A stretch of 64,000 nucleotides of DNA from Isoetes taiwanensis (lineage: Eukaryota; Streptophyta; Lycopodiopsida; Isoetales; Isoetaceae). The position numbers and the translations under genes were made by a program. Below, piece by piece: positions 5,711 to 59,759 of this stretch (position 1 is the first letter of the stretch; each line of letters opens with the position of its first letter). The notes beneath the pieces were generated by a model. It was given only the letters and a program-made list of their open reading frames with translations. It did not search any database and was not told where the DNA came from. The stretch is taken from positions 14,708,902 to 14,772,901 of the forward strand of contig JAJEKV010000006.1 in NCBI GenBank assembly GCA_021234155.1, in the 5' to 3' direction.

Positions 5711-5744
5711 GTGCGCCTATCTTCAATCGTTCATTGTATATGTT

Positions 5745-9100: not shown

Positions 9101-9398
9101 TTGCTCTTTTATTTGACCTTTTGAATGGTAATCTTGGTTGTTTTCCAAGCTGACAACCACCACATAAAAGTTTTCCTTCTTCTTCTACTTTTGCAGATAT
9201 TATACCCTTGTTTTTTAGAGCTTCAATTACTGCAGAATTCACATGACATAGCCTGTTATGCCAAAGTTTTATATCTGGATATTCTACCAGATTAACTTCA
9301 TGAAGATGATCAATATTAAAACCAAACAAGTTTCCAACTCTTTTGCCAATGAACTTTAATTCATCATTCGTAAATACTTTACAATTGGATTTGTTCAA
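6106..9398 (-). mobile_element. Copia pol region: integrase, RT, RNase H (fossil)
   Basis: Minus-strand pol. GAG-pre-integrase (LWHNRLCH), integrase core (HTDLCGP, SPQQNGVAERKNR), reverse transcriptase (GSKWIYRVKPG, YGLKQSPREWY, ALYVDD) and RNase H (SSAEAEY) come in that order. The longest uninterrupted stretch is 7,299-9,398. Broken overall. Confidence 0.9.
6112..6121 (-). other. Copia polypurine tract
   Basis: AAGGGGGAA on the minus strand immediately before the 3' LTR. Confidence 0.8.
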
Positions 9399-9879
9399 AT
9401 AAAACTTTGTATCCCATATCCACTAACTGACACACAGATATGAGATTTCTTACAAGACTAGGTACACACAAAACCTCTTTCAGCATAACAGGTTTTCCAT
9501 TCAAATCAAACAACTCCAAAACTCCAGAGTCTTCTATTTTTTTTAGCCTCCATCACCAAGTTTGAACATGACCTTCTTTCTTTTCCACATTTTTAACATG
9601 TGCATATCACACATCACACTTTTTTCTCTCGCCTCCCCGAATTTATAACCACAAACTTGTTATTATTTCTTCTTGGACATATAGAAACATTACAAGTTAA
9701 GCTTTTTCTTACCTCCAAGGTGTCATCTTCTATCTCTCCTTCACTACTTTCATGCTTCTCCATTATATTGACACTTGCACCACCCCCTCAAACTTGTCCC
9801 CGCCTCTTCCCCTCTCAGAAACCTCGAGATTTTACCACGACCTCTTCCTCTTTTTAGGACTTGAGCAATTGAAAGAGAA

Positions 9880-10729
9880 ATGGCCCTTGCCCTCACAATT
9901 AAAACACCTCAATTCTTTTTCACTGTTACTTGGACATTCATTCTTCAAATGACCATACTGATTACATAAATAGCAAGGCCCTACTTTTTCTTGTGAAAAT
10001 TTTTTAAAGCCAACCTTCTTAGCTTACCAGTGTACAATACCTCTGCAGATTGTTCTGACTCCTCTTGTGCAACATTAGATTGTTCAAATTCAGTGCGTAT
10101 CATTCTGATAGCATGTTCCTTAGAAGTAGCTACATTTCTGAGCAAAGTTGCTAAATGACTATTATGAGAAACTGACCTTGCTAAAGCCAAAATCGATATC
10201 GCTCACTTCGGGAATATTTCCAAAGACCTTCAAGATCTGCAATAATAGAGTCAAACCTTTCTAAAAAATTAGTTAGATTATCTTTTTCGACAAGCTTCAT
10301 CTTCCTTAACTCCTTTTCTAACAGATCTATCTGTGAGGAACTCTTTTGTTCATAATGTTTAATTAGATAGTTCCACATATCTTTAGGCTTCATACCTCGA
10401 AGTTTTAACTTTAAGGCAGTTCCTACCTTGCATATAATTATGGCTTGAGCTTCCATAATTTTAGCTGCGTCTCCTTCTGAGCTAGCAGAAGTTCCCCCTG
10501 CACGAGACACTACTGCACCACCTTCAGACTGTGCACTAGAGCTAGCAGCCGAGTTTGAATCCCCTGAACTAGTTGCTCCTGCACTTGCAACTGCACTACC
10601 ATCAATCAGATACCATAACTTTTCAAACTCGAGCACGCTCCTAATACTTTCCTTCCAGATTTGAAATCCTCCATCCCCTTTAAAAACTTCAATTGTATTC
10701 AGCAAATTTGCACCAAATCTAGTTGTCAT
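9880..10729 (-). mobile_element. Copia gag region (fossil)
   Basis: Minus-strand capsid-like sequence with the usual copia gag start just inside the primer site, followed by two CCHC zinc knuckles of the CYLCNQYGH and CFNCEGKGH type near 9,880-10,000. Part of the broken element. Confidence 0.8.
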
Positions 10730-10746
10730 GATTACTAGATCTTATA

Positions 10747-10759
10747 GCTCTGATACCAA
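10747..10759 (-). other. Copia primer binding site (tRNA-iMet)
   Basis: TGGTATCAGAGC on the minus strand next to the 5' LTR, the standard initiator tRNA-Met complement of plant copia elements. Confidence 0.88.
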
Positions 10760-11268
10760 TGTTAGAATCAGAGCTTGGGGTTTGAACCCAAGTATGCCAA
10801 GACTCTCCTCCTTCAAACCCCCTCGCCGCTCCTAAAGTCGCATACACGCACTTTAGATTCCGCCTCATTCTATTCTATCACCATCATTCATCTATTTATT
10901 TTCTTATCAACCTGGATATATCCACTTGTCAAATCGTGCATGCCCTTCATATAGAAAGTTTTCCAACTTGCCTAAATAATAGGATGCCCTGCTGTCCTTA
11001 AGTTCCAGCTGTCGTTGACTTTGACCCGTTTGACCAGTCAACCCAAAACCCTAAGTGGCAGGCAGGGGGTATCAACGTGTTCTGGCGGGCGTAGCAACGT
11101 CTGGGTAGTACCTGCCCGCCACTTTTCAACTTCTATGCTTTTTTCCTTGCATTCACTGCCACTGCTTCTCATGAGTGCTTGTATGAATCCTCATTAGCCT
11201 AGGGGAGCCAAGATGTGGTCACTAATCCCCTTATGTGCTCGAATATCACATGACACATAATTTTAACA
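10760..11268 (-). repeat. Copia 5' LTR
   Basis: 509 bp beginning TGTTAAAATT and ending GATTCTAACA on the minus strand, the TG...CA ends usual for the family. A second copy lies at 46,883-47,403 in the other duplicon. Confidence 0.88.
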
Positions 11269-13077
11269 TGAATGATTCTAGAATTTGTGTGTCTATACCA
11301 ATAGGTGCTTCATTGCCAAATCGTATTGTGGTGAAAAGCGACCCTTGATACAAGAAGTTAGATCTCAAATTGTTGAATGGTCCAGAATTGGCTTGCTGTC
11401 ATTTGCTTCTTTTTGACATGGTTCTTATAATTAGCAGCATGTGAGACCTCCTTTTGCTCCTCTTAAATCTCCAATCCAGTCTATATTTAGTGCCTCTCAA
11501 TCTTATCTCTCTCGATCGTTCCATTTGATTCTGTTGTTATCATTTTTTCTTTGTCTCTGAGTTCCTCTATGGTACAAACATCTAAATTTATTGTTTCTCT
11601 TGACTCTCATGTTGATGATATTATTGATGTTTCTCCTCGTTTAGTTCAGATACCAGAGGTTATCATGTCTGACATCATCATTATTCTGCATACTAAAGCT
11701 TTGGCATAGGGTTAATTTAAAGAAGGCTGCAAGAAAAAAAATCAATTGCAAGTTCATGTGAGTCTTAGTCCTTCTAGTGTGAACTTATCGAAAAATGATG
11801 GTTCTACTACCTCTCTTCTTCACTTTATTGTATAACATGACAACTTGATGTCAAGTGATCAATGTTTAGATATCATGGAGTATATTAATAATGACGAGGT
11901 GGCTAAACACCTCAAAGTAGTACAAGATAGATAACATTTTACTGTGTATAGGTAGTTTTGCCTGGCGGTACTATTGCATTTTATAAGCTTTTAGTCCCAT
12001 ATTACAATACTTGTGATGTATCTTGATTACATTTGCAAATGCTTTTTACAAATTTTTGGTTCGAAGAAAAAGGTTTTAATCAAAAATAAGATTTTTGTGA
12101 GAGGTTTTTTTTTTTAACCCAACCATTGTATGTGATATCTAAATCACGTAAAATAGTTTAAGAAAAGAAGCACTAGAGAGAATGTCAAAATTGTTTCTAC
12201 GCTCATAACTTGAGCTACAGAGATTAGATTCAGATGATCTTGGGCTCCTTAGGAAGCTTATGCAGAGAGCTTTCCATTGGCATATGATCTGGCCCAGATC
12301 TATCAAGATAGGTACCTGCTTTTTGTAGTTTTTATTCCGAATACCTTTTATAAAGTGCAGAATTGATGTTAATATGTTTTGAATTCCAGACTCCGCTTTG
12401 TGTGTTTTGCGTTGCGTTGGAAAGCTCTCTTTGGGATCTTTCTGATTGTATATTTGGTTAAGTTTATGGATAAAAACAGGAAATTTGTAAGCAGATTTGA
12501 TAGGGTTTCACACCTGATTAAAAGATGATTTTCAAAACAATAAATCATACTTCTTATCCAGTTCATCATTTTGGTCATGTCTTTTGTCCTGTATCATTGT
12601 AGTGCAGTAAGCTTTTATGAAGATATTGAAGAGATGATGTTATCGTGGCCACATTCTGTATCGGAAAAAAAAGGTTAAAACTTTTTGTTTTGGCGTGTCA
12701 TAGGATTTGTGCTATATTTGATGGTTTATATGTTATTCATGAACTTATCAATGTTTTTTGAATTTTTATTTCCTTTTCAAAGAAAAAAATAACATCTCCC
12801 ATAACGCACCAAAACAAATAGTTTTCAATTTTTGAAGTTTTTTTTTGTTTTTAGTTTTATCTTGACTTCGATTCTTGATTAAAAAGAATAACATAGGTTC
12901 AACTTTTCAAATGCCAAAATATCATGATTTGACTTTTCAAGTGTTAATAAAACAAAAATATAGTATGTGCAAATCATAGTTTGAATCAATTAAATTGGTT
13001 ATTATCTTTATGGAGATCAAATGGTCTAAAACATAACTAATATTGCAATAGGTTCCAAAACATATCCTTTAAAAATC
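11269..13077. other. PAE 3' flank, no gene recognised
   Basis: A+T-rich DNA between the copia 5' LTR and the PAE stop codon, repeated at 47,404-49,192. Short open frames such as the one at 12,369-12,578 are in both copies but have no recognisable motif. The PAE transcript should end in the part just below 13,078. Confidence 0.6.
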
Positions 13078-16000
13078 TTACAATTCACAACTAGGTGGAC
13101 ATGATGGGATGCATAATAAAGGAGGCCCATCAATTTGTTGTATTACACCTCTATCAAGAATCCAGTCTCCAACAGCTTCTAAAATTGACTGTTACCATCA
13201 TCATAAATATTTTCATTTAAACTTAGTACACACCCAACCCAAACATAGACAATGAACGATTGAAGATAGGCGTACCTTATTATTGATGGTTGTGGTGTTC
13301 CAACCACAAAGCTCACAATGTCCAAAGCATGATTTGATAAACATCCCAAAACCATCCTTCATAGATAGATAATTTATTTCTTGAAGCAAATTACTTCTAA
13401 AACCTAGAAGTTTATACAATATGTGTTAACGTCTCTATTTTTTGCATTGATTCCAAAAACATTTTTTCTAGAGTAACTATGACGTATTAAATGAATTTCT
13501 TTGAAACTGTGTCACAACAAATGTTTGATTGAGATACTAGGATTTGTTGAAACTGTGTCACAACAAATGTTTGATTGAGATAATAGGATTTTGCCCCTTT
13601 TTTTTAATCCTTTTTCTTTTGCATACTTGTTAATTCGTGCAGATGAAATGGTAATCTAGCTCATAGTCTATCTTTTACCTACAAATACCTACTAATATAC
13701 ATAGGACATCTATTTGTCTACTAGGTATTACCTTCTAGTATGGCTCTTTGGGAGTTATTGCAAGAGGAGTAGTCCTGCATGAGTAACACATTGCCCATCT
13801 AGGGAAAGAAAGAAAAATCAGTATAGGTTTAAACCATATTCACATTATTATAATGGGTTATACTACCTGCCATGTGTCATACGTTGCATGTACTATAAAC
13901 AAAGGTGTTTGAATATACGGTATCATATATTGGGGGAATAGTTGCTGCACGTGTTCCATAAAGGAGAGACTGAGAAAAACATATAGCTTCTAATATTAGA
14001 GTACATGCAAAATTGGCTATTACCTCATATCTCTTGTTTACATATGTGTACTTTCTCTCCAATCCAACTGTAATGTTCTATAGCAATAAGGATAGAGTTA
14101 GGAAGCGAGAACTTCAGTTTACTTATTATCTTACATGTTCAACAACAACGGCATCAAATACTTCTCTGATATGATTCCTTCCATAGATATCCTTCCTACA
14201 TTCAAATAGATAGAGCTATTAATGATGTAGTTTGTTTCAGGTACATGTTTGTTTGTTTAGCACTTACACATCAAGAAAGAAGCCTCCATCATTTAAGCAC
14301 TTCACAAGACATGCCCTTGGAAGTAGTTCTCGAAAGTTATTACATAACAAGGTGGTCGCTGTCCCTCCAGCTGAGCATCCCATAAGTACTGCCTAGAAGT
14401 AACCAACGATATACCAATCAAAGCTATAATACAAAGGTAGTAGAGTTATAAAACATCCCACCTTCTCAGCATTTTCCAATCCATAGGATAATAAATTTGA
14501 CATAATCACTTTCCAGATTGTATATCCTCTATGATAAAGTAGTGTCTATAAATTGCAACCAAGATGTACATATAATTAGTCCTTTAATTTAGTATCTAAA
14601 ATCTCATAGCCAAGATTTATTACCTGGTTTTGACCAGATATTGGTTCTTCCATATTGCCACTAAATGAAGAACCGTCACAATACTCAATAAAAACATGAT
14701 TCCAATTCCAAAAATCTGCATGATGATAGAATATATGAGGACATGTGAAGATTGCATTGCTATATTAAATAATAAATTTATCTATTAATAGAATACGGAT
14801 TTCACTTACCAAGGAGTTAATTATTCTCAATGATAGTAGTAGAACATGTCGAATGCCATAGTTACCATTGACATGATGCAATCTAGCTTTTAGCTATGGT
14901 ACAACTAATACAATATTCAATCAACAAATGCACATATTTCTATTTGTCACAATCCTCCTCATTTTGCCCCCTAAATGTAGTTGCCGCTTCAACGATACCT
15001 CTCTACCATTACAAAGAGCAATAGATAAAATAATTCTTAAACCAATTGGTATTAAAAAATATATTGTAGAACTCACTCAGCTTTTAAAGTCAGTTTCGTT
15101 GAAAGGGTTGTATGAATTAGAATATACAAAGTGCAAATAATATGCAACAAGAATAGTTTCTTACATTTAGACATATATTTATATATAGAGGAATGCCATT
15201 GTCACTGCCTCCTATAGAACACAAATATATATTGTAACATTGTATGATAGATAATTGCTAGCTGAGCAATTGATTTGCATGATTCTTGCTCTTTACACAT
15301 CATCTGTATAGGGCGAATAAGCAATCTTAGTGTTGTTTGTGCACAGCTAAATTGATCTCTAATTCTCCCTCGTTCGAGGGGTAAATTTCCCTATTGATAG
15401 GTAGTTTATAGTTATGATTCTGTAAATATCAACATCAAAGATGTTTCTTTAAATATTACTCCATTAGTACATGGAAAACTAATGGAAGAAAGAGTTCGAT
15501 TTAGTAAAATAAAATAAAATAATGGTTTGCTGTAGCCATAGGCATAGCCATAACTGTCTTGATTGACGTGATCATGTTCTTGGCTTGAATAGTTACAGTG
15601 TTAAAAATGCCCCTAATGGTTGTTAGTGATCTCTTAATGTGAGAGCCCACAAGCCCATTCTTGCACATCTCCTTTTGAACTCTTATATTTCTCTCTTTCT
15701 ATCTATGCAGTTACATCATATAGACCTTGAGTGGTATCACATCGTCTAGTTTATGCTATTTTGTATTTAATCTATGCTCTATACTTTGGGCTTTACGCCT
15801 TTGTCTGATTGAGCTTTGTGCCTTTATTTTATCTTTTCTGCGTTATTGTTGGACCTATGTGCCTCTTTTTTATTTTGTTCAAGCTTGTTGCTCTAGTTTT
15901 GAACAATTTCATTCTTTCGTCTTTCATGGATATTAAAATTTTCTATTCTATTGTAGTTTCCTCTGCTCCCTCCACACTTCACCTCACTTTTCTCTAGAGT

Positions 16001-18028
16001 AATTAGTTTGGTTGGTTCATTCCTCAAATTCTCGATTCGTTAACCAGGGTTTCAATCTTCATGAGGCAAATGTCAAATATTTTTATACCTTTGGTTCATT
16101 ACGTTGCTATTTAGTCTTATTTTACCAATAACATTCCTTTTTAAGGATATTTTTATACTCGCAAAAAGTATTTGCTACATAGCATGAGTTGTGTAATAGT
16201 ATTTCTAACCTATGTACCTAAGTGAAAGAAAGGAACCCTTTACATATAAGGAAATAGGTCCATAAAATGTAAATAAATATAATATTATTGCATATAATTT
16301 AAGTTTGGTTTGAGTGTTTGGCCTTTGGCTTATTTCTAGCTGCATTTGAGCTTTGCCCATGCATATAATTTAAGTTTGGTTTGAGTGTTTGGCCTTTGGC
16401 TATTTCTAGCTGCATTTGAGCTTTGCCCATGCGCATCTTTTGGGAGTTAACATTTCTATTTTGTTCTATTCTATTCAAGATAGTTCTACTAGATATGTAG
16501 GGGTTAGTTATAGTGTAGTCCCCTATGGGGGTTTTTCAACATATCCGAAATTGAGAATGCTTGATAATAATTTCCATGACCTGGATGTGGTGCCGAAAGT
16601 TACGAAGGAACAGGATCCGGGGAGTGATCACATCGTAATGCGATATTCTAAAAACACCCAAACACCCACCTCTCGAGGAATCTTTACTAGTTATATACCG
16701 TGATTAGGCATTTCTATCCGATCACCGGGTAATCTTGTGAACCGGGAGGTCGACTTTGATCCCCGCTGTGAGGTAACACCTCGATACATGGTGGTTATCT
16801 AACGCAAATGGAATCGGGCTAGCTTGATATGAAGCACTAAACGGTATGCATTCGTATGATCCGGGTATCTGTTCATCTTGTTGTGCTCTCTTTCTGAGCT
16901 TGCTTCTTTATGCCCGGTCAACACAGGGTTTTCTATAGGAAAAAGGAGGAGGTAGAGGAGGTGAACTACCTACCTACCTACCTACCTACCTACCTACCTA
17001 CCTACATACGTACGTACGTACGTACGTACGTATGTATGTATGTATCTATCTATTTATCTATCTATCTTTGGTACAATGAAATGAATATTAGTCACTATGG
17101 TGATAAATGAAGGAGTTTCATTTTGTATTCTAATCTCCATATAACCCTACTACTATATATAGCATATTAAATGATGGAAAAAGAGGAGGCTATTGAAGGA
17201 GGACTCCAAAGTGTGGGTGGAGGCCTTCACATGCTACTTTTTGGGCAAACGTGGAGTGACCACTTAACCAAGGGAGAGTTCCTTGCAAGTATAGGAGAGT
17301 CATTTTCATCTCATTTTGGAAATATTATGGAAGGAATGGGGAAAGGCATCTAAGAGGACCCACACCATGGAACACAAAGTAATAACGACAAAGCTACGAG
17401 GTTGGGTTCACATGGATAATTGCATCACGACAAAGTGATGATGTGTAGGATGCTATTGCCTCAAATTTATAATAAACATTGGACGTTACGAGTGTCAATT
17501 CCATGTAAATTAAGGATGCACCTGGATTCTCCACTTCCGAATTGCTCAAAATATAGCCGAAGGTCCGTCTCAATGGCCAAAATTTGGACGATCCGAGCTT
17601 TGTTGTGCTTCGAATAGCGCAGGAATTAGTGCCATTTCCATAACACCATCCACCGCCCTGATCCGAGGCCCATAATATGAGAATAATGTAAAACGATCCC
17701 CTTTTTTTTGTGTAAGGACATAAAACCACATCAAGCATTCATGCATTGATCACCTGTAGAAAAACGATCCAGTTGGGTGAGTCTGATTTTCTCCAGTAAT
17801 ACGCACCCGGGCTCCCGTCTAAGCAAACTATAATATTTTTGCATGAATTCGTCGGTCACTAGACAAACAAACATAGACGAAAAAAACTAGGAGGAAGAAA
17901 AAAAAATGTTTGTTACCAGCTTCCTGGCTCTCAACAAATGTTATGTTGACCCATGGATCCAAATCCGAGTGGGCTGAGTTCATAATCCAAAGCAACAGCA
18001 CCACACAAGCCGCCGCTCTCTTTTCCAT
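13078..18028 (-). CDS. Pectin acetylesterase (PAE/Notum family), complete 12-exon gene
   Basis: Predicted to remove O-acetyl groups from cell-wall pectin in the apoplast. Exons on the minus strand: 17,917-18,028; 17,754-17,827; 17,522-17,657; 14,624-14,715; 14,462-14,545; 14,268-14,392; 14,135-14,195; 14,042-14,067; 13,867-13,969; 13,732-13,798; 13,276-13,403; 13,078-13,188. All junctions are GT-AG and in phase, giving 372 codons with TAA at 13,078 (family usually about 390-400). Residues 1-21 form a signal peptide with a VVLLLW core. [10 protein letters not shown] starts at 39, GGGWC at 63-67 (oxyanion region), and GCSAGG holds the nucleophile Ser173. HATYDTWQ holds Asp268 and FGHCE holds His322, so the Ser/Asp/His triad is present. 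Intron 3 is 2.8 kb. Exon 8 is only 26 nt and is the least certain exon, but it is the only choice I found that keeps phase. A near-identical gene lies at 49,193-54,152 and an inverted half copy at 4,278-5,710. Confidence 0.9.
13241..16143. repeat. Inverted repeat, right arm
   Basis: Reverse-complement partner of 2,765-5,744, with about 7.5 kb between the arms. It starts in PAE intron 11 and ends in intron 3. Confidence 0.85.
13496..13596. repeat. Short tandem duplication in PAE intron 10
   Basis: A unit of about 50 bp (TGTGTCACAACAAATGTTTG) occurs twice. The same doubling is in the left arm near 5,405-5,495 and in the second PAE copy, so it predates all the duplications. Confidence 0.8.
16290..16431. 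repeat. 71-bp tandem duplication in PAE intron 3
   Basis: Two adjacent copies of a unit starting CATATAATTTAAGTTTGG; repeated in the other duplicon at about 52,416-52,558. Confidence 0.85.
16432..17521. other. PAE intron 3, 5' part
   Basis: No exon is needed here, because exon 3 (phase 1) joins exon 4 in frame. A plus-strand frame at 17,171-17,353 is identical in both duplicons but unrecognised. 16,560-16,870 is one of the patches where the duplicon copies differ mainly at CAG/CTG. Confidence 0.6.
16966..17067. repeat. Compound tetranucleotide microsatellite
   Basis: (CTAC)n, then (GTAC)n, (GTAT)n and (CTAT)n in one uninterrupted tract; each block differs from the next by one base of the tetramer. 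Lies in PAE intron 3. Confidence 0.95.
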
Positions 18029-18340
18029 TTAGCTAGTTTCGGTTCTCACCTGGAGGGGCTTCCGTTTATTATTTCAAAGGTTAATGCAACCCTATGGCTA
18101 TTCCTTCTTTAAAAAATACTATCTATCTATTTCACTTTCTCTTTGTCGGCCAACACGTCTTTTGGTGGCTAGAATATGCCAATTGGACTTACCCTAAAGT
18201 GAATGGAGGAAGGTGTATGAAAGCCGACTATGGTTTTTGTTGCATTGGCTCTCTTATCACGTACTTGATAAGCCATTAAATTGACAAGAATGATGGGGAA
18301 AGAGCACATTATTAGAGCCCAATGACTCTCCATATTAATA
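18029..18340. other. PAE upstream region
   Basis: Should hold the PAE promoter, but I see no clear TATA box at a convincing distance. A plus-strand open frame at 18,094-18,279 is kept in copy 2 but has no recognised motif. Confidence 0.4.
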
Positions 18341-18660
18341 CATTATAATATACTAGTAACGGGTGCACGGCATTGCCGGGCATAAATACATTCTATAACA
18401 CCTTGCACAGTTTGAAAGATGGTCAAGAGATAGATAGTAGATAGTAGTTTTAACGTCACGCCACTAGGCAGCATCCAACTGGACATGTGACCACACACCA
18501 CACTACATTGCTTGGTTGGGCCCTGCCCCCAACCACCTTCCTTTACATTAAGCCTCATTTGGATTTGACCCCAACAAGATCGAAAAGGCGATTCTCGCTG
18601 TCCTCGAACTCGAGACCACATTGCTAAGGAACTAGTGTGTTACCACTAGACCAAACGCCT
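18340..18660 (-). repeat. tRNA-derived SINE-like repeat, copy 1
   Basis: Minus-strand head resembling the 5' half of plant tRNA-Pro (GCGTTTGGTCTAGTGGTAAC, an A-box-like start), with a B-box-like GAGTTCGAG 45 bases on. A weakly defined tail runs to about 18,340. The cleaner version is at 54,460-54,776. The tail has no clear poly-A, so the SINE label is tentative. Confidence 0.35.
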
Positions 18661-19827
18661 GCAGAGAAGTCCAAGAAAGCGATAATGTCAAATCGGTTTG
18701 GCAATAGTGGTATTAATATATTTAGAAAGTCTGTATAAATATGAATTTGAATTAGCAAACATGGTGTTAAGTTGGAATAGATATAGAGTGCAATCAACGT
18801 TAGTCTCAAGTTGTATAATAGAATTATTTGTACACTCTGCATGATGTCTTCTTTGTTATTTTCTATGTCATGGTTGTTTGCAGCTATGTTTTGAATATGT
18901 AGTTTTCAGGGGATGACGTTACAATGGTAGAAATTAACATCACTGTACTGACAATTTGGGCAATTAAGACTTGAAGCTTGAATGTAATAATGGACCCTAA
19001 TATCCATTGTATGAATGCAAATACACATGTTATTGGATTAGCTATCTATAAGTAAATAGCTCCTCTGTCTTGGTACAATGTACATGCACTAAATAGTTGG
19101 TTCAACCTTTATAAGCAACGTGGTTTATAGTTGACTTTGAAATATGATGATCTCGATTGGGAATTGTTCGTTTTATATCCACAAATAGGAATTGCACACC
19201 ACTGTGTTGAATTGATAAGGTTTCCACCGAATTAAGATGAAATGTTTGATGGGGGTTTTTTTTTTTTGGGAGGGGATGAATATGGTGGGATAGACTATAG
19301 TCCTATGCAACTGATGTATAAAAGGAGCAGGATCACCAAAAAAAAAGGGGGGGATAGGGAAATGTCTATCTTCTAAAGCATTCAAGTCTTGCATATTCAA
19401 GAACATATTTGAACAAATAACATCTTTTGCGCCATTGTGAAATAGATAATATGAACAAATATCGACTTCCCAAAATATAGGGAGGTCGTTAAAAAAAGAA
19501 ATGTTTGGTGGCATCAAATTCACTGCTCTTTTAGCCTCTAGTTTTGATGTTTCCTTTGTTATTTGGAGTAGCATAAAATATTTGATAGTTTCCACTCGGA
19601 GAATGTATCCAACTTCAAGATGATGGAGGCCTCCACCTCTGTTTTTGCATCAAAATCTGTCATTGATCATGTGGCCACCTCTAATCTCTTCGTAGAGACC
19701 CATAGCAGGAGTGCGCACACCCCTGAAATGAGCTGACATGTGTACTTCCAGATCACCAAACAAATTAGAGCCCTACAAGTATTATATGCCCGCTTCTTGA
19801 AATGTGGCATCCTTGCTACGGAGTAGT
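18661..19827. other. Intergenic, one unrecognised open frame
   Basis: The longest frame is minus 19,173-19,595 (140 codons, beginning METIKYFMLLQ). In copy 2 its C-terminus differs (162 codons at 55,218-55,706) because homopolymer lengths at about 19,255-19,275 differ. No known motif; probably chance. Confidence 0.4.
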
Positions 19828-19913
19828 TGTTAAATTCCATTCATATATTAGATATACCTGAGGGCACCAATCCACATGGCCATATGTCTAACATATAATT
19901 ATAATAGGGTAGA

Positions 19914-20115
19914 TTCTAGAATGTTCTATAATTAGACACTAAAATGCAGATATTTCAATGGTGCGTCCAACGGAAGCTACTAGATTCCAGCCTCTTGGTT
20001 CCAGCCTCAAGGTTCCAAGAGGCTGGAGCATTTCTAGAAGATGTTCTGGAAAATATGCTGTCTTTCTGGAAGCCTTCTCGAATGGTCTAGATAGGTCTTT
20101 GTCTTCGCATAAAAG
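19914..20115 (+). promoter_or_regulatory. Heat-shock-element cluster before a TATA box, copy 1
   Basis: A perfect three-part element TTCTAGAATGTTC lies at 19,914-19,926. More TTCnnGAA pairs follow at 20,032-20,039, 20,044-20,051, 20,064-20,071 and 20,075-20,082, and a TATA-like ATAAAAG lies at 20,109-20,115. Between them is a 13-bp perfect inverted repeat (19,986-19,998 with 20,015-20,027; TCCAGCCTCTTGG). HSEs bind heat-shock factors. What is transcribed downstream is unknown. TGTTA at 19,828 and TAACA ending at 20,496 could be the ends of a lone copia-type LTR, but I find no flanking target duplication. Confidence 0.5.
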
Positions 20116-20640
20116 GGAGAAGATGATCCGTCAGTCCACCCTATAGCGGCTGTGCAGCGGTCGGAGTTTGTGGAGAGCGATGATACAAGCTCCGTTGGGT
20201 TAAATCAAGGCTTGCTTTTCAAGCTTGCGAGAGCTATGTTGGATTTTAAGGCTTGTGTTTCAAGCTCGGGCAGACTCTGAACAGAGTTGAAGCTGCAGAA
20301 GGAACAGAAAACTAGAGAGGGTTCTGATTGCAGATCCTTACTTTGTAGGATTTGAGTTCGTAAGGCAGAGCTGCTGTCATCGTATGTAGGTATTGAGAAT
20401 ATCTGGACTGTGTCTGTTCTGTTTTTTCCTTTTTTTTTCTTAAGCTTATGTGTTATTGACGCTCAGAGGTTCGCGCTTCCGGTTTCAGAGATAACATTAA
20501 ATCTCTGTGGGGGAATACCATGACCTGAGTGTTCCGCCATAGAAAGAGCATGGAAGACTCGTCATCACAGCGATTTTTTGAATGCCTGTCTTTCATTTTC
20601 GACCCTAAATCACCCTGCTGACGCCGCCTTCATTTCTGAA
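20116..20640 (+). other. Possible transcribed leader downstream of the HSE cluster
   Basis: No long open frame. Contains pyrimidine tracts and several GT/AG signals. It is either a non-coding leader or the downstream part of a possible solo LTR. Confidence 0.3.
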
Positions 20641-20840
20641 CCTAAATCGGCCTACTAAGGTTTCCGGTTTTATAGAAATCTCGACGCTCCAATACCTTGA
20701 AGCCGGAGCAAATAGAATCAAGGGCAGAATTTTCGTATGCATATGTTTTTTGAAAAGGACAAAAGAGTCCATGTGTTTTTTTTCCTTTAAAGGATACCAG
20801 AAACCGTAGCCGGGTTATTCGCTTCATGGGTAGAGGAATG

Positions 20841-21115
20841 TCATGGAGTTATGAAGTAGTTGAAGAAATAGCTAGAGATACCCGTGACCGCTTGTGCAAG
20901 TGTGAAGCTCAATCTCATAGGCTCTCGCTTATATGGAGCACAATTGTAAATGTTGTTCTCTCGAATAACAACCTTTTGGAGGATGAATAGCATCCGCAGA
21001 GCTTTGCTTGTGTCAAATCCATCCGGTCCAACAAAGTTTTGGCCCCGCCGAGGATCCACCGATTGATTTTGTGGGCTTTATTGAGAAGATTTCTCCGAGC
21101 TCATCCATTTAGATG
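20841..21115 (-). other. Unrecognised coding-like segment, copy 1
   Basis: Matches copy 2 at 56,955-57,254. There a minus-strand frame (57,043-57,225) reads MDELREIFSNKAHKINQW and continues to GPDGFDTSKAL. In copy 1 the frame is disturbed by differences that fall on CTG/CAG sites. It could be an exon of an unknown gene. Confidence 0.3.
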
Positions 21116-21159
21116 ACCTGCGGTTGCTCTCGCCCCAACCATGTCCGTTTTTCTGCTTT

Positions 21160-22597
21160 TTGTATGCATGTTCATGCAACATTAAGCGAAGAATACGTTT
21201 GATCTGCTAAGGAGCTGCAATTTTTTCAATAGGTTTGTACTAGCATACCTTCCTTTTTAATTAGGTTTAGATAGATTTCTTGCTATTTCTTAAAGATTCC
21301 TTTTTGTTGGAGGGTAACTCCTAGAAAACTTTAGGATTTATGTACATTCATGAAGAAATGGCAATGGCCACAGCCTAGGGTTTGAGTCAAATGAGCCCTC
21401 AAAAGATACGCCTATACAGCCTTATTCCGCAGGTCTACTATGTCACGAAAATGGTACATGTATTGTATGGTAAAGAATTAGCTAAGGTTTTAAAAGCACG
21501 GAAACTATTGTTCACCGAACCTTTGACCACTAATCAACCTAGTTATATATTCCCGTTATCCATATCCATATTAAATAAACATACAAGACATTAAAAATCA
21601 CAAAGTTATGCACAAGGGGTTTTCCCAAATATTCACCAATAAGTAAAACTCTTTACGCTCATTGAAAGCATGTAAGTTTGCAAACGTCATCATTTCTTAG
21701 CTATGTAGCTTACACACTATGAAAATGTATAGGGGATTTCTTAGCTATGTTGCATACACGTTATGAAAATGTATAAGAGAAGGGCAGCAAGGGCTTGCCT
21801 TCTACAAAACTGGCAGTATTATGCATATCATATCAGTATGTTTTTGTTTTTTGGGTGTCAAGCATGAGCGCTGACGATTTAAATGCATGATGAACCACGC
21901 AATTTAAACGCATGACGAACCACTATAGGAAGACCCATTTGGCAAGAGGTGTTTTGATGGCCATGCATAGTTCTAACTTTATAGACAATATGGAAATTCA
22001 AATTTTAGCGTCCTTTGTTTTTCTATTGATTATGCATTATGGAGTAAATCGCATTAGCTTGGGGTTTTGAAAAATAAACCCTCTAGTGGCACAACTAGGG
22101 ATTGCAATCACAGTGCCTTTCTGGATATTAAAATATGTGCAATGCTTGCTAAGTTGGAAAGACATTAATTTGCAAAAGTTTAGTCCTTTTTTGCATAGGA
22201 TAATGATAAAATTCCATGGCAATACCAAACAGAATTCATGCTTCTAGTGGTTTGCAAAGTCCAAATAGCTCAAGTGCAAATAGTGAGTCCATCAAACGAA
22301 TATTTTAGTAGTATCTCCACAAACTTGCCCCTAAGGCTAGCATGATTTATATACTCTTCCTCTTCTTTCCACCAAGATTTTCAACTCTTTGATGGTACAA
22401 CTTCTATGCCTTAATTAATCCATTTATTCCAATCATCCCAATCATCCACAATCTTTTGCCCCTCAATCCACATCCATTGAACAAAGATGGAGCAAAGAAG
22501 CAAGATAGCAACCAAGAACCCGTTGAAAAGGTAACCAAAATGTAACCACCACCACCTTTTGCAGATTGGCAATAGGCAATATATAAATAATCAATAG
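21160..22597. other. Intergenic, short tandem repeats only
   Basis: A repeat of about 48 bp (TTTCTTAGCTATGT ... GAAAATGTATA) occurs twice at about 21,694-21,775, and a degenerate pair around GATGAACCAC near 21,880-21,922. Small frames at 21,382-21,594 and 22,404-22,607 are kept in copy 2 but unrecognised. Confidence 0.5.
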
Positions 22598-23387
22598 CGT
22601 AATGCACACCTAGGCAGAATTACTGCATTTTTCTGCTGATTTTACCCCCCGCAATTCTCTCTCCGCCTGTGTATAGCGGCGCCGCCAGTATTTTGTGGCT
22701 ATGGCGGACTATGGCGGATCAGCTCTTCTGGCGACCCTTCCTTCAAATCTCTTCTTCTGAAGCCAGCATAGCTAAGAAGAGCAAACCAAAGTGATGCACT
22801 CTTGCCGGATGTTTGACGTAGAGCAGTCTGAATAGCAGAGAGCCTAAGAGCAACCGGAGAGCTTCATTTAGGAAAGACAGAGGTTTCTTTGTGAATCTAT
22901 TTCTTAACTTTCGTTTCTTTTCTTTGCGAATCTATTTCTTAACTTTCGTTTCTTTTCTGTGTCATTTCGTGCCTTCGATTCCATGTTCTTGCATTTTTTC
23001 CCTGTTCTATGCATGCATTAGAAGCTCCGATGGCGATGATAAGAGCATTTTGGCGATATAGAAGCGTAGATCTAGGGTAGCAATGGCATTTTAAGCCGCT
23101 TTGGCGCAAATCAAAGCTCTAACAGCCCGGACACCCGGTTTTTTTACATAGCCATTCAAGGGAAAAGTTTCTCACATAGCCAATCCAAATTTCCATTCAA
23201 GGGAAAAGTTTACGCCATAGCCAATCCTCCTCCATTCAAGGGAAAAAGTTTCGCCATAGCCAATCCGGTCCTCTATTCAAGGGAAAAGTTTACGCCATAG
23301 TGGCCCAAATCCCGGTTCTCTCCTCCTGCTCATAATTCCCGCCTAGGTGTGCCCGTTTTGTAATTACGCTTAGGTGTGTATATTACG
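22598..23387. mobile_element. Non-autonomous element with terminal inverted repeats, copy 1
   Basis: The left end (22,598-22,623) is CGTAATGCACACCTAGGCAG plus six more bases. The right end (about 23,360-23,387) is its worn inverse. In copy 2 both 26-bp ends are perfect. The interior has no transposase frame. It holds a 35-bp doublet (about 22,877-22,955) and a 40-bp tandem repeat (about 23,150-23,310). Superfamily unknown; no clear target duplication. Confidence 0.55.
23145..23310. repeat. 40-bp tandem repeat (ATTCAAGGGAAAAGTTT), copy 1
   Basis: Four to five units, each with ATTCAAGGGAAAAGTTT and CCATAGCCAATCC. Inside the TIR element. Copy 2 at 59,270-59,425 has more regular units with TTTCTGCCATAG where copy 1 has TTTACGCCATAG. 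Confidence 0.8.
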
Positions 23388-23639
23388 TAAGGGAAAGTTC
23401 TATGCCTCGGAATATTCCCTCTGAATATTCTCTACTGGCCGCCGCCAGACTGGCGGCTTGCCAAGCCGCTTGGCGCCGGCCATCTTGCGGCTCGCCTCGA
23501 GAAATTCCCTCGTGGAATTACCTCAACTAGAACTTTCCCATATATAACAATTTCATGCACTTCGTTGTCACTCGTGTATGCACTTCTTCTTTCTAGAAAT
23601 GCCTAAAACCACCAAATAGCGGCGGGGCCGCTGCGACAA

Positions 23640-25825
23640 TTTCGTAAGAAATTATTCAGGAACTTTGCATATCGGTCCCAAACATTTTTAACTCAGCTTT
23701 GGCGGAATTGGACAGATGTTGTTCTATAGTTTGTTTCCGAGGGTTCTTGCAGACAAAGCTAACCACCGATGCAGGACTCCGGATAAGGTCCATTGAACAT
23801 CTGTTTATATCTGACAGTGCCTTATTTGGTCCAAGCATCTAGGTTATTGAAAGATGGAGCAACCCATTGTTTGATATTCGCCTTGATTCTGTTTGATTTT
23901 ATCTATGCATTGCTGCTTTGAGCTGTACATTTTTAATTTGCAAGCTCGAAACTCAACATACACGTCGTGTGAATTTGCAGCGTGTATTAAGCAGACCAGT
24001 TGGAAAAGAGGTACATTCTACTGCACCAAGAAGCGCCACATATTCATCATGATGCTATGGTAAGGATGTCGATACTAACAGTCACAGGTTATGCAGAGAC
24101 GTTTTATGGTCACGTAGCACATTTTGGTTCAGAAGTTAGCAGACTGGATTTAGTAATGCCCTTGTTTTCTTTGAAAGAAAATAAACACTTAAGGTTTGCT
24201 CTATTATGGTTGTCAAACTGGCTTGCCCATAGATTATCTTTCATTTCCTTCAATATATGCCTTATCGTGATACCTTATTTATGATGAAATCCTTCTGTTC
24301 TTTAGTAGGACTGCCCACATACAGCGAGTTGACAAATATACAAACCTTATGGGGTCCATAGAAGCATGGCTGAATGGCAATAGAGCCAAACATCTTTACA
24401 ATGTAAATTTGGTCAGCACCACAAGTGCATAATCAGGTTATACAAATAGAATGTAGATGCAGCCATCAGATTCTACTAAATCATTTGAATGGGGAATCTC
24501 CAAGGGTCTAGCACAAAATGCAAATTGGCATCCAGAACTTTCATCTTTGTTTCACAATGATATGCCATGGGTTGATCTATAGCCTGGGATGCACATCAAA
24601 AAAAAAATCTCCAGAGTCAGATGGATACTCCCCTGGTGGAGGCTTTTGCGTTTGTGCATCAATATTTGCCAATGGGATCCCTTCTTGTGATACCTTATTT
24701 ATAGTAAAATCCTTCTGATCTTTAGTAGGACTGCACACATACAGTGAGTTGACAAACATACAAACCTTATGGGGTCCATAGCACCATAGCAGCATGGCTG
24801 AATGGCAATAGAGCCAAACATCTTATAATGTAAATTTGGTCAGCATTAAAAGTGTATAATAAGGTTATGACTATATCTGCACTTAAACTAAAAACGACAG
24901 CTTCTACTGACCTGTAATACACTAGAAAATGCCACTTACTTTGGAACATGCTGCATAAGTGAGCCTGCTACCAAATAAATAATGCAGTGCTTAAAGTAGC
25001 TATCTTTGTTGCATTTTTCTGGCTGTAAAGAATAGCCAGATGTGCTTCCTAGAAATATATTCAATGTCAGCAGCTCATCCTAACTAGTAACAGACTGTTG
25101 CAATAGTGCATACAAAATTGACTTCAAAAGTGGAAGCTCATTTCATACATAATCAAAGATTTTGCATGTTGTAAAAAATGAGAATTAGCCCTTATCACTC
25201 TTCACAGGACCTTAAGCTCAAAAGATGGATATCTAAAACAACAAACGTTGAAACTTAGATTTTCTACCTTTTAAGCTGTGCACAGAACTCTCAGATATAT
25301 TCTCAGATAGGTTATGTAATTTTCTTTAAACAATAGGGAGAAAAAGCGACGGACCTTTTGAGCAGAAGTGCAACATCCCCTTCTGTGCTGCAGGATTGGC
25401 CATGCACAGACCCAGGGAGCCATTGCTTTCTGCGACCCACATAAATCCCCCTCTATCTGCACACCATGAAGCAAGCTCTGGAACTGAATGTCCACTGACC
25501 AAGCCATGAAAATAAACAAAACCCTGTCATTAGCACACATTTTCAGAACTGGTGGAGCAACACCCATATTCAAAACTTATGCATCAGGTCCAGATCTTAA
25601 TGTTCTGTGGCTGGAAAATAGAATTAATGTTGCAAGAAAGACAGAACTACGAAGAAAATGACCTTCCTTCTGCTCTAAGCTATACAATGCAACACAAATA
25701 GAGAGATCACTAAATTCAAATCCTTCAAAAACTCCAAATCGATCCTATCAACGGGTAGCTTACATCGCTTCAATGTATTCGGACGGATAGCCAAATCCTA
25801 TAGCGTGTCCAGATCGACACGCCAT
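23640..25825 (-). CDS. Unrecognised spliced gene, copy 1 (tentative)
   Basis: Several exon-like blocks on the minus strand. The first starts with ATG at 25,825 (MACRSGHAIGFGYPSEYIEA) and ends at a GTAAGC donor at 25,764. A second, 25,355-25,523, lies between ACAG and a GT donor and contains GLVSGHSVPELASW and GFMWVAESNGSLG. A third, 24,972-25,048, reads EAHLAILYSQKN onward and has good GT-AG borders. The phases between blocks one and two do not fit without an exon I could not fix. A last frame (23,656-23,838) may or may not belong. The peptide composition looks like real protein, but I do not recognise the family. All blocks are kept in copy 2 (61,951 downwards). Confidence 0.3.
24268..24850. 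repeat. Direct repeat of about 150 bp, 420 bp apart
   Basis: About 24,268-24,420 recurs at about 24,687-24,845 (TGATACCTTATTTAT ... CAAACCTTATGGGGTCCATA). Present in both duplicons. Confidence 0.85.
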
Positions 25826-26411
25826 GCCAGATCACGACACACTTTTGTTGACCATAAAATTTTTAGCCTAATTCCCTAAGAAACATTCAATAAAGCAATA
25901 CCGCACACCATACACGTTTCATTATTTGGAGACGGTATTAAAGAACTGGTCAATCTAAATTAGAGTTAAAGAACTCGTCACTCTAAATTACACATGTTTA
26001 GATTAGTTAGTTGATTGATGTCTCAATATGAGCACGAATATGAGATTGATAGTTATAAAAAATTGATTAGCATGTTTTAGGCCTTCCCACGTCGTAAACA
26101 TTTATAAGAAACTTTGTGAACAATGTGAACAAGGCAATAACAATGTTATAACAATGTGATAAATAAGAAAGAAACTTTATGACAATGTGAACAATTGCAA
26201 TACCCACAATGTTGGGCAAAGTGTTGGAACACGAAAGTAAAGTCCTTGAAAAACCGTGCACAACATTAGTTGATGACTTGATATTGGCAAAGGAGATTAC
26301 CAAATGACTAGGTCCATTTTTGGGCACTTCCATGTGGAAAACATTTATAAGCAACGTTGTGAGCAAATGCAATACGCATGCTGTGCTATGGCCTGAGAAA
26401 GACACCTTCAT
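25826..26411. other. Intergenic between the unrecognised gene and GulLO
   Basis: A+T-rich with internal repeats: AACATTTATAAG and GTGAACAATGTGAACAA words recur at about 26,095-26,200 and 26,338-26,360. The two genes point away from each other, so this may be a shared promoter region. Confidence 0.5.
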
Positions 26412-26419
26412 TATTTAAG
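26412..26419 (+). promoter_or_regulatory. GulLO TATA box, copy 1
   Basis: TATTTAAG 57 bases before the first base of the ATG; this leaves a leader of about 30 nt. Confidence 0.5.
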
Positions 26420-26475
26420 AAGGAGCCTTGTTCCAAATTATCATATTCCAATTTGGAGCAAGAGAGAAGATCACA

Positions 26476-28433
26476 ATGAGAACAATTTTTGTTGCCTTTG
26501 CACTATTTCTGATTCTCAAAAATGCATATGCAGCTCCACCTCCAGCTGTTAAATGCAGTGGAAACAATGTAAAATGCACAGTGAGTGGAACCTTTGGAAC
26601 ATGGCCTGATAGGAGCATCTGCAGAGCAGAAAAAGTGGTGTACCCAAAAAATGAAGAAGAGATCATTGCGGCGGTGTCCGAGGCAACCAGAAACAAAATG
26701 AAGATGAAAGTGGTGAGCAAATTATCCCACAGTATGACCAAACTAGTATGTCCAGGAGGAGACAAAGGCCTTCTTATCAGCACAAGAGATCTTATCAGCA
26801 TTAAAGTTGATAAAGAATCTAAAAGTGTGACAGTAGATCCTGGAGTTTATCTACAGGATTTTGTGGATGAAATTGCAAAATATGGTTTTGCATTTCCTCG
26901 CCACATCGAATGGATTATCAATGGCGTGCATGCTTGGAACAGAGCTCATGGCGCTTCATTTTGGGGCAAAGGTAGTGCGCTCATGAATATGTGAAAAGTA
27001 TTCATCTTGTAGTCCCCGCCTCCAAATCGGTTATGCTAAGGTTCCGTGCTTACCGTAGGCATCCGAGGTTTGAAGCAAAGAAAGGTTTCACTTGGTGTGT
27101 TGGGTGTTATTTCAAAATAACCTTTGAAGTGCGACCCATGTTCAAACGCTCGCTACAAACTTGAAGCAATCGATGATGACCTTGAAGATCGATCGTATCC
27201 TTTGGATTACAAAGATGAATTTGCAGATGTGATTTGGTATGCATCTCAACACAAGGCCATTTACGAATCGACAACAGAGTTGATGTTAGCACCGAGGGAG
27301 AGGGTGTAAATAAATTCCTTGGCTTCGTGAAATACCATAAACTTGTGGCCCAGCCGATAGAATAGCCGGGTAAGAGTAAGAAGTATAGAAAACATGTATA
27401 TGCATTGATGTTCTTCAAGGCATATGTAACAAATGATCTCGCTTTGTTTTGTTACGTAGAATCTTTATGAATCAGCCAAGGATTCTCGCAGAAGAAAATG
27501 TGCTCAAAACCATACAAAAGATTTAATTTAACCATGAACATTTGAACAATTTATAAACCGCTTAAACATTGCCTAACATTTTTGCTCTTTCCATTCCAAA
27601 TCAAATTATTTCGTGACATGGTAGTGGGATGAAAAAACACGAGGACGATTTTGTTGGATATCCGGTTATTGGTTTCCGAACAAAATTCAAACTACTGTGA
27701 AGCCGCCACAAAGTCAAGATGAGAGCCGATATTTGTGTATGGGATCCAAGAGTGGATCGATTATTTTTCCACCGCATCTACGCTGTCCATATCCGTGGAA
27801 CAAGATCGAGATTTTCATAATGGATGTGAAAAAACTGAGGAAAGAAAGGCCCACAACGTTATGTGGAGTAGACATGTATTATGGCTTCGTGATGCGCCAT
27901 GTGAAGGCGCCTAGTGCATTTTGGGGCATGCGTAAGATTCAATTGATGTGGATATTACCTATTATCGCTCAAGAGATCCCAAAGCTCCAAGGCTACAATT
28001 GCATGCTTTGGAAGAGATTGAACAGTGATCGCCGTGTTTAAATATGGTGGCCTTCCTCATCGGGCAAGAAACGTAAACGCTGCATTTATTGACGCTTGCA
28101 AAAGAAATTCCATTACATGGACCTCGTTTCAAAAACTAGAGCAGAGCTTGATCCTCAAGGGTTGTTCTCAAGTGAGTGGTCCGATGCAATGTTAGGGATC
28201 AATACTAAAGGCTTGACAAATTCAAGATCATCAGGCCATGGAAGGTATGTGTATTTGTTCTCAAGACCGCCCACCGTGCTCCTCAAGACCATTACTATTG
28301 TGAAGTCGGCTTAGTTTATCCCCGCTACGCTAGGGTGTGTAGGCACTTGGATTTGTTAGCACGCTACCGAAGAACTCTAGTCTATATATATGTATTTTAT
28401 CCGTGGTTGGAAAATGTGTCCAATCATCTTTAG
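26476..28433 (+). CDS. L-gulono-1,4-lactone oxidase-like (GulLO), copy 1
   Basis: FAD-linked oxidase of the family that makes ascorbate from L-gulono-1,4-lactone; plant members are mostly secreted. The ATG at 26,476 gives a signal peptide ([19 protein letters not shown]). The FAD domain follows, with [38 protein letters not shown] and [10 protein letters not shown]. Clean up to about 26,890. Beyond that the frame is interrupted repeatedly, but family blocks remain: KGSA near 26,970, [20 protein letters not shown] near 27,820, [13 protein letters not shown] near 28,150, and a Cys-rich C-terminus (MCICSQD) to a stop at about 28,431. An intron (about 27,517-27,597) matches one in copy 2, but its donor reads AAAAGATT instead of CAGGTGATT. 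In 27,120-27,515, 14 of 15 differences from copy 2 fall on CAG or CTG, so the damage may be an assembly artefact and the gene intact. Otherwise it is a young pseudogene. Confidence 0.75.
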
Positions 28434-44664: not shown

Positions 44665-47403
44665 TTGCTAATTCTTGGGGAACATGAGACAGAAACATAA
44701 GCTTATCCATATGCTAAATCTGTCATAAGATGAAGCTTACAGGATAAAGCATTTTGGGAATGGCACCTCTTATGCTTGTAGAAGGTAACAAATTTTACAC
44801 GAATATAGGCTGCTTTGCATTCACATCTTCATCCACGAAATTTGGTAGGCAGTATTTTAGCATGGATCTCCGGCATCTAGTAAAGGTCCTGTTCTTTCTT
44901 TCAGCTACCTCCATTTTGTTGTGGTGAGTATCTACAAGTTAGTTGCCTCTTGATTCCTCTGCTTGCACAAAAAACTTAAATTCATCAGATATATACTCAC
45001 CACCCCTATCGATATTACACTTAATTTTTTCCTTCCAGTCTCTAGCTCGGTTCCGTGATAAATAATTTCAAGGCCTCACTTGCTTGATCTTTTTTTTCAA
45101 AATATAACTTTTTGTCCTTCTACTAAAATCGTCTATGAAGGGTCATGAAATGCTTATGTCCCATAAAGCGGTAACATTTTATAGGACCACATATAGATCC
45201 GTGTGTACCAAATCCAAAATGCCCTTTGCTCTTTTATTTGACCTTTTGAATGGTAATCTTGGTTTGTTTTCAAAGTGACAACCACCACATAAAGTTTTCC
45301 TTCTTCTTCTACTTTTGCAGATATTATACCCTTGTTTTTAGAGCTTCAATTCTTGCGAGAATTCACATGACATAACTGTTATGCCAAAGTTTTATATCGA
45401 GATATTCTACGGGATTAACTTCATGAAGATGATCAATATTAAAACCAAACAAGTTTCCAACTCTTTTGCCAATGAACTTTTAATTCATCATTCGGAAATA
45501 CTTTTACTGGTTTGTTCAAATAAAACTTTGTATCCCATATCCACTAAGCGACCTACGGATATGAGATTTCTTACAAGACTAGGTACACACAAAACCTCTT
45601 CGGCATAACGGGTTTTCCATTCAAATCAAACAACTCAAAACTCGGAGTCTTCTATTTTTTTTAGGCCTCCATCACCAAAATTTGAACATGACCTTCTTTC
45701 TTTTCCACATTTTTAACATGTGCATATCACACATCCACACTTTTCTCTCTCACACGAATTTATAACCACAAACTTGTTATTATTTCTTCTTGGACATATA
45801 GAAACATTACAAGTTAAGCTTTTCTTACCTCAAGGTGTCATCTTCTATCTCTCCTTCACTACTTTCATGCTTCTCCATTATATTGACACTTGCACCACCC
45901 ACGAAACTTGTCACCTCTTCCCCTCTCGTAACCTCGAAATTTACCGACCTCTTCCTCTTTTAGGACTTGAGCAATTGAAAGAGAAATGGCCCTTGCCCTC
46001 CTGATTAAAACACCTCAATTCTTTTCAACATTACTTGGACATTCATTCTTCAAATGACCATCTTGCGATTACATAAATAGCAAGGCCCTACTTTTTCTTG
46101 TGAAAATTTTTAAAATAACCTTCTTAGCTTACCCTTTAAAAACGTGATTTTATACAATACCTCTGCATTCATTTGTTCCATCTTGACTCCTCTTGTGCAA
46201 CATTAGATTGTTCAAATTCCTCCTCTTGGTCGTTATCATTCGATAGCATGTTCCTTAAAGTAGCTACATTTACGAGCAAAGTTGCTAAATGACTATTATG
46301 AGAAACCGACCTTGCTAAAGCCAAAATCTGATACTGCTCACTCAGAATATTTCCAGCACCTTCAAGATCTGCAATAATAGAGTCAAACCTTTCTAAAAAT
46401 TAGTTAGATTATCTTTTTAGACAAGCTTCATCTTCCTTAACTCCTTTTCTAACAGGATCTATGCGTGAGGAACTCTTTTGTTCATAATGTTTAATTAGAT
46501 AGTTCCACATATCTTTAGGCTTCATACCTCGAAGTTTTAACTTTAAGGCAGTTCCTACCTTGCATATAATTATGGCTTGAGCTTCCATAATTTTAGCTGC
46601 GTCTCCTTACGAGCTAGCGAGTTCCCCACCTGCCTGAGACACTCTTGCACCACCTTCGGGCATGCACTAGAGCTAGCGGCCGGTTTGAATCCCACAGAAC
46701 TAGTTGCTCACGCAACTGCACTACCATCAATCGGATACCATAACTTTTCAAACTCGAACGCAGCTCCTAATACTTTCCTTCAGTTTGAAATCCTCCATCC
46801 CCTTTAAAACTTCAATTGTATTGACAAATTTGCACCAAATCTAGTTGTCATGATTACTAGATCTTATAGCTCACGATACCAATGTTAGAATCGAGCTTGG
46901 GGTTTGAACAAGTATGCCAAGACTCTGTCTCCTTCAAACCCCCCTGCTTTGCTCCTAAAATTTTGCATACCGCCTTTTATATCGCCCTCGGCTCATTCTA
47001 TTCTATCACCATCATTCATCTATTTATTTTTCTTATCAACTTTGGATATATCCACTTGTCAAATCGTGCATGCCCTTCATATAGAAAGTTTTCCAACTTG
47101 CCTAAATAATAGGATGCCCTGGCGTGTCCTTAAGTTCCGGTATGGGTTGACTTTTGACCCGTTTGACGGTCAACCCAAAACCCTAAGTGGCGGGCGGGGG
47201 TATCAGCGTGTTACGGGCGTATTAGCGATGTCAGGGTAGTACACTGCCGCCACTTTTCAACTTCTATGCTTTTTTTTCCTTGCATTCCTTGCCCTTTGCT
47301 TCTCATGAGTGCTTGTATGAATCCTCATTAGCCCTAGGGGAGCCAAGATGTGGTCACTAATCCCCTTATGTTATCGAATATCACATGACACATAATTTTA
47401 ACA
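44665..47403 (-). mobile_element. Partial Ty1/copia, copy 2 (fossil)
   Basis: Corresponds to 8,546-11,268: integrase part of pol, gag, primer site and 5' LTR (46,883-47,403). The rest of the element lies outside the duplicated block. Broken, with more breaks than the first copy; most differences from it sit at CAG/CTG sites. Confidence 0.88.
46883..47403 (-). repeat. Copia LTR in duplicon copy 2
   Basis: 521 bp with the same TG...CA ends as 10,760-11,268; primer site adjacent at about 46,870-46,882. Confidence 0.85.
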
Positions 47404-59506: not shown

Positions 59507-59528
59507 TAAGGGAAAGTTCTATGCCTCG

Positions 59529-59640: not shown

Positions 59641-59759
59641 GGAATTACCTCAACTAGAACTTTCCCATATATAACAATTTCATGCACTTCGTTGTCACTC
59701 GTGTATGCACTTCTTCTTTCTAGAAATGCCTAAAACCACCAAATAGCGGCGGGGCCGCT

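Follow-up and report, generated by a model that had tools for sequence, protein, structure and literature searches.

Methylation of cytosines in the CHG context is established in plants. The closest described counterpart of the pattern reported here comes from bacteria, where about 70% of the consensus errors left in a K. pneumoniae genome by current ONT basecallers with default models were located in the Dcm motifs CCAGG/CCTGG (Wick et al. 2019, PMC6591954). In Enterobacteriaceae, homopolymer lengths were the next class of error, and Dcm errors were nearly gone once a model trained on such DNA was used (PMC6591954). More generally, modification types missing from training systematically lower consensus quality (Chiou et al. 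2023, PMC10687267). That study dealt with bacterial isolates, in which quality was improved by amplification or reference-based correction, whereas the present case concerns a plant. For plants, lower nanopore accuracy has been noted, with native methylation named as a likely cause, and a plant-specific model was introduced with Guppy 6.1.2 (Ferguson et al. 2022, PMC9749173). The main text of that report does not contain the term CHG, nor does a motif-level error spectrum appear in what is accessible of it; a CWG (CAG/CTG) spectrum is given here. A description of such a spectrum in plants was not found in the open-licence PMC literature, including the accessible parts of PMC8188678, PMC10027222 and PMC7501810, and we do not claim that it is unpublished. 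The locus described below resembles the Dcm case in that errors pile up at a C within a CWG core, which is known to be methylated in the bacterial case and is presumed to be so here. It differs from the Dcm case in that any CAG or CTG (plant CHG) is affected and in that a second copy of the sequence substitutes for a truth sequence. We regard it as an already familiar type of artefact that is met here in a plant, as a counterpart to the Dcm (CCWGG) error described in bacteria.

The window analysed is a stretch of 64,000 nucleotides from Isoetes taiwanensis (contig JAJEKV010000006.1) and contains two copies of a duplicon, from now on referred to as copy A and copy B. Its gene content, with a copia element, a pectinacetylesterase fragment and a plant FAD oxidoreductase, points to a plant. 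Self-BLAST of the 64-kb window aligned the two in direct orientation at 96.5% identity, with 337 mismatches and 239 gap openings, and the repeat may continue past the window end. A global alignment resolved their differences into 315 groups which are strongly clustered. Inside the patches rich in CWG changes, 253 substitutions and 349 gap columns were counted in 6,270 columns; outside them, only 9 mismatches and 38 gap columns were found in 12,843 columns, a count that excludes the region 23700-24100 (13 substitutions in 407 columns), which was treated neither as patch nor as non-patch. Homopolymer-length changes, which are expected to accompany modification-induced error, make up 42 of the 315 groups and, among the 48 groups that fall elsewhere than in the CWG patches, 19. 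The coordinates of all features are collected in Table 1.

Table 1. Features of the 64-kb window, with difference groups counted between copies A and B unless another pair is named.
Feature	Position	Strand	Details
Duplicon copy A	8544..27858	+	Self-BLAST; partner 44669-64000, offset ~36.1 kb
Duplicon copy B	44669..64000	+	Self-BLAST; cut by window end, true end outside view
Patch, copy B mainly damaged	44669..47820		Partner 8544-11720; 133 groups: 53 B-damaged, 12 A-damaged, 7 equal, 44 without CWG, 17 homopolymer
Patch, copy B mainly damaged	48298..48520		Partner 12175-12394; 7 B-damaged and 2 A-damaged of 13 groups
Patch, copy A damaged	16546..16861		14 A-damaged and 0 B-damaged of 18 groups
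Weaker small patch	18538..18680		3 A-damaged and 1 B-damaged of 7 groups; outside pooled CWG count
Patch, copy A mainly damaged	20797..21156		8 A-damaged and 2 B-damaged of 16 groups
Patch, copy A mainly damaged	23091..23492		13 A-damaged and 3 B-damaged of 24 groups; contains 41-bp tandem repeat
GULLO-like gene, first half, damaged in copy B	62670..62987	+	Labelled sites 26543-26855: 14/14 B-damaged
GULLO-like gene, second half, damaged in copy A	26978..27858	+	Labelled sites 26978-27807: 27/27 A-damaged
GULLO-like gene, 3' end, copy A	27859..28311	+	Without partner in window; two frame changes, possible introns
Ty1/copia LTR retrotransposon	5726..11269	-	RVT_2, rve, gag_pre-integrs, Retrotran_gag_2; LTRs 5726-6112 and 10883-11269
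Control transposon copy	2765..5745		Pairs with 13241-16141 (inverted), 93.9% identity, 73 difference groups, without CWG bias

Differences inside the patches are centred on CWG. In the blocks where polarity is clear, the cleaner copy has 193 CAG/CTG, of which 161 are disrupted in its counterpart, the highest rate among 32 trimer classes, so that the changes concentrate at a motif that is methylated in plants (CHG). Relative to all other trimers the odds ratio is 25.6, with a P value of 1.8e-88 that is optimistic because block borders were picked from the alignment; the effect far exceeds what such border-choice bias could produce. Patch borders were set by eye from the alignment before counting, which favours the pattern somewhat, and the pooled count omits 18530-18700 as well as the two switch zones at 23420-23500 and 26860-26970. 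Base composition shifts in the same blocks: across seven of them, the observed/expected ratio of CWG is 1.26-2.16 in the cleaner copy versus 0.12-0.54 in the damaged copy, and that of CG goes from 0.22-0.81 to 0.65-1.12. The patch at 18530-18700 is weaker, its CWG ratio falling from 0.99 to 0.64 with a polarity of 3 to 1 only.

An earlier, sequence-only reading of this DNA had described the copies as differing almost only at CAG/CTG sites and had proposed a trinucleotide count as a check. In this window, the count given above bears out the enrichment, and the words "almost only" proved too strong over all patches: of 547 differing columns, 314 are located in or directly beside a CWG of the cleaner copy, positions that cover 937 of 5,740 bases, and the other 233, which include homopolymer lengths, CG-containing sites and a stretch at about 9,500-9,900 in which both copies look damaged, lie elsewhere. 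Trimers of the cleaner copy that contain CG are also disrupted, at rates of 38-64% (CGC 23/36, ACG 26/47, CCG 15/33, CGA 21/56). Together with the 233 columns away from CWG, this indicates that other contexts err too or that the nominally clean copy carries errors of its own. The example given with the earlier description, 15 difference sites in 27,120-27,515, could be reproduced. Of these 15, 13 show a gain or loss of CWG within two flanking bases, and the 14 originally counted are reached if position 27492, which abuts a CAG of copy B, is included. The other patches named at the time were likewise recovered in the A/B alignment.

Either copy can be the damaged one, as had been claimed. After 42 of the 315 groups had been set aside as homopolymer changes, and with groups having equal or zero CWG in both copies left unlabelled, the seven CWG patches contain 79 A-damaged and 80 B-damaged sites. 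These labels are arranged in blocks, forming 30 runs compared with a mean of 81.5 in shuffles and a minimum of 57 among 10,000 of them (161 labels, two of which come from the ordinary cluster at 23700-24100; the CWG patches alone hold 159). Parts of the patch at the left edge of copy B are probably damaged in both copies. At about 9,500-9,900, neither copy has a CWG at the majority of difference sites, and copy A is poor in CWG; we infer that both copies are damaged here, which would fit the break between the two open frames of the retrotransposon in copy A. The patch at 23091..23492 contains a tandem array whose period-41 units give 86% matches and 8% indels in copy A and 91% and 1% in copy B; in copy A the same CTG appears as ACG twice and as CG once, and the units are more alike in copy B, which keeps the CTG.

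Damage labels are defined through CWG, and polarity could be tested independently of CWG at two places only, an LTR and a protein-coding gene. The copia element straddles the left edge of copy A, and its LTR at 5726-6112 lies outside the duplicon, thus providing a third copy. At 47 A/B difference columns, this third copy agrees with A at 42, with B at 3 and with neither at 2.

The gene, which we take to be GULLO-like, matches TIGR01677 (plant FAD-dependent oxidoreductase), and the profile reads in frame only in the gene halves that keep CAG/CTG. TIGR01677 is matched by one copy A frame at positions 2-157 (143.8 bits) in the first half and, in the second half, by one copy B frame at positions 182-295 (141.6 bits) and another at positions 317-399 (77.9 bits), each fragment scoring under the full-length cut-off of 383.1. 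The first half is a single open frame in copy A (26419-26991) and the second in copy B (63124-63666). To judge from the sequence, an intron may separate the two copy B segments. The opposite copies are barely readable: over the first half, six copy B frames yield 12.2 bits, 35.2 bits and four times no TIGR01677 match, and over positions 157-286 copy A yields 21.1, 25.9 and 17.2 bits in alternating frames. Overall, the profile pieces of the damaged copy are short, score 12-39 bits and change frame, or are missing. The damaged copy switches from B to A within about 120 bp inside this gene, and a frame shift of copy B near profile positions 173-182, in the switch zone, indicates that copy B is not clean throughout. 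In the 3' end present in copy A, positions 379-426 and 481-518 fall in one frame and 458-497 in another; CWG is low and CG high over 27001-28500. The interval 26890-28433, singled out by the sequence-only reading as a stretch of duplicon differences, is indeed the part of this one gene that is damaged in copy A, with a partner in the window only for 26978-27858. Pfam identified FAD_binding_4 in copy A (E 9.4e-14) and ALO in copy B (E 7.5e-4, under the cut-off), and a solved-structure search with the copy B frame returned nothing significant (best E 0.43). At both of the CWG-independent places, the version carrying CWG reads as the original one; the third LTR copy and the protein profile thus agree, if indirectly, in identifying the unaltered motif as the true sequence.

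The pattern is a real property of the assembled sequence and very probably not one of the plant's DNA. However the two copies came to diverge, we are confident, on the evidence of the sequence, that the A/B differences represent consensus error at methylated CWG, and we infer a nanopore origin, CHG methylation and a CpG-trained caller. The assembly would have been built from native-DNA nanopore reads in which the cytosines of CAG/CTG (CHG context) were methylated. A basecaller that knows 5-methylcytosine mainly before G (CpG) would put a G straight after the C, turning CAG into CGG, CG or CGT and, as seen from the other strand, CTG into CCG, CG or ACG. Such an error would outlast consensus because the mark sits on both strands. 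In a near-identical duplicon, short-read correction or read assignment could then fix one copy per stretch and leave the other damaged; the copy nearer the truth would attract the correcting reads, giving rise to alternating damaged blocks. Taken alone, we give this correction step an even chance. Consensus error at methylated CWG was also the explanation offered by the sequence-only reading, and motif specificity, outcome spectrum, indels, homopolymer changes, alternation and the polarity seen in LTR and profile all favour it. Its further suggestion that the patches map CHG methylation does not hold in simple form: a patch becomes visible only if exactly one of the two copies is in error, and hence something else, probably correction, also shapes the patches.

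Block-wise damage could also arise if only the damaged copy were methylated in each block, with no correction involved. Such copy-specific methylation (epialleles) is a sub-case of methylated-CWG error and would involve the same error chemistry, but the switch from B-damaged (14/14) to A-damaged (27/27) sites within about 120 bp of one gene would call for sharply reciprocal epialleles, which are unlikely in near-identical DNA. For this reason we rank it below short-read correction and consider it improbable.

The products of the damaged motifs bear on explanations that invoke real mutation. They were counted in slightly narrower blocks, also omitting 9390-9900, which contain 187 CWG; 167 of these are disrupted and 104 of the disrupted ones gain CG. 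Isolation was sufficient for 94 to be classed (the remaining 73 of 167 are unclassed) and, written as CAG, these become CGG (18), CG (15), CGT (9), CGAG (5), CGA (4) or one of a tail of other products. CG is present in 63 of the 94 and stands at the start in 58, indicating that the C is mostly retained, that the middle A/T is lost or altered and that a G follows the C. Among the 159 labelled sites, 108 gain a CG and 2 lose one. A mutational process aimed at CWG on a young duplication, for example error-prone repair after 5-methylcytosine excision at CHG that leaves CG, would account for the motif specificity and for indels and multi-base changes. It would, however, need hundreds of targeted changes against a background of 9 mismatches in 12,843 columns, retain the C and place a G next to it in 58 of 94 isolated outcomes, yield differing outcomes in one 41-bp repeat unit and act in alternating blocks such that each copy stays readable where the other is broken. 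We regard it as very improbable; the sequence-only reading had also judged an unknown CWG-targeted mutation process less likely.

Deamination of 5-methylcytosine, or a RIP-like C-to-T process, might be considered given that CHG is methylated in plants and that transitions make up 144 of the 253 patch substitutions. The commonest transition, however, is CAG to CGG, the patches hold 349 gap columns, and TAG, CAA and TAA are each found 0 times among the 94 isolated outcomes, in agreement with the earlier observation that TAG/CAA-type changes are missing. C-to-T mutation is contradicted at these isolated sites and was rejected, its probability being negligible.

Ordinary divergence of old paralogues in fast-evolving patches is equally negligible and was rejected for the CWG patches by the transposon control, an ordinarily diverged pair in which CWG is disrupted at 3/34 and 5/36 sites (trimer backgrounds 329/2979 and 249/2899) as opposed to 161/193 in the patches. 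A second pair, 1-1119/1583-2692, has very few sites, with CWG disrupted at 1/4 and 2/5. What does look like ordinary divergence is the cluster at 23733-24075 (59860-60208 in copy B), where 13 ordinary substitutions are accompanied by a length difference of 6 bp and CWG bias is absent. Consensus error leaves this cluster unexplained; it may stem from a true difference between haplotypes or paralogues, or from cross-mapped correction.

The A/B duplication could be false, or it could be genuine and of very recent date. Sequence errors can yield under-collapsed copies, and remaining false duplications were located on the same scaffold in 61-92% of cases in VGP assemblies and 7-24% in older assemblies, according to the accessible part of a survey (PMC9516828). 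That survey concerns vertebrate genomes; here we deal with a plant duplicon that is a candidate false duplication only. Near-zero divergence, as expected of a false duplication, is seen outside the patches (9 mismatches in 12,843 columns, cluster 23733-24075 excluded), and the same is also expected from a very young real duplication. The 1-kb segments that flank the two copies on the left (at 8544 and at 44669) match each other at chance level only, and 8544, the left edge of copy A, falls within copia coding sequence. For copy B, the left edge at 44668/44669 corresponds to that point within the copia coding part, without homology in the 1 kb leftward, and is a candidate false join.

The copia pol open frame ends in a 322-bp head-to-tail duplication (6671-7318). 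Its two copies differ at CWG, with 5/7 and 4/6 sites disrupted compared with 55/320 and 59/324 for all trimers, suggesting that it may be a small false duplication.

The composition signature was also surveyed along the window. Seven of 64 1-kb windows have less than 0.5 of the expected CWG together with more than 0.7 of the expected CG, namely those starting at 1, 2001, 17001, 27001, 34001, 37001 and 38001, by a crude threshold that the damaged copy B windows at 45001, 47001 and 62001 just miss. Very low CWG and high CG at 1-1000, 2001-3000, 34001-35000 and 37001-39000 occur outside the 36-kb duplicon pairing. These spots without a partner may represent undetected damage of the CWG kind or natural CHG depletion; as damage without a visible second copy, they would weaken the need for duplication.

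Errors of this type break genes in assemblies, as they do here with the two complementary halves of the GULLO-like gene, and the result may pass for pseudogenes, for divergence between paralogues or for a bias in mutation. Since depleted CWG and inflated CG are recognisable in the sequence itself, a screen of public plant assemblies for this signature is feasible; used with care, the signature also hints at former locations of CHG methylation.

As to the remaining content of the window, searches for RNA families (gathering threshold) and tRNAs found none. In a Pfam search for broken genes among 30 open frames inside and outside the duplicon, 1 reached its cut-off and one more gave a weak match below it, too few to gauge damage in single-copy sequence. 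The one that reached it is a pectinacetylesterase gene fragment on the minus strand at 17397-17738 (E 5e-8), where copies A and B of the duplicon do not differ. Near the window start, two tandem arrays at 499-828 and 2024-2746 consist of a 28-bp unit (CAATAAATGCAAAGCGTATTAATGGCCG) and longer units.
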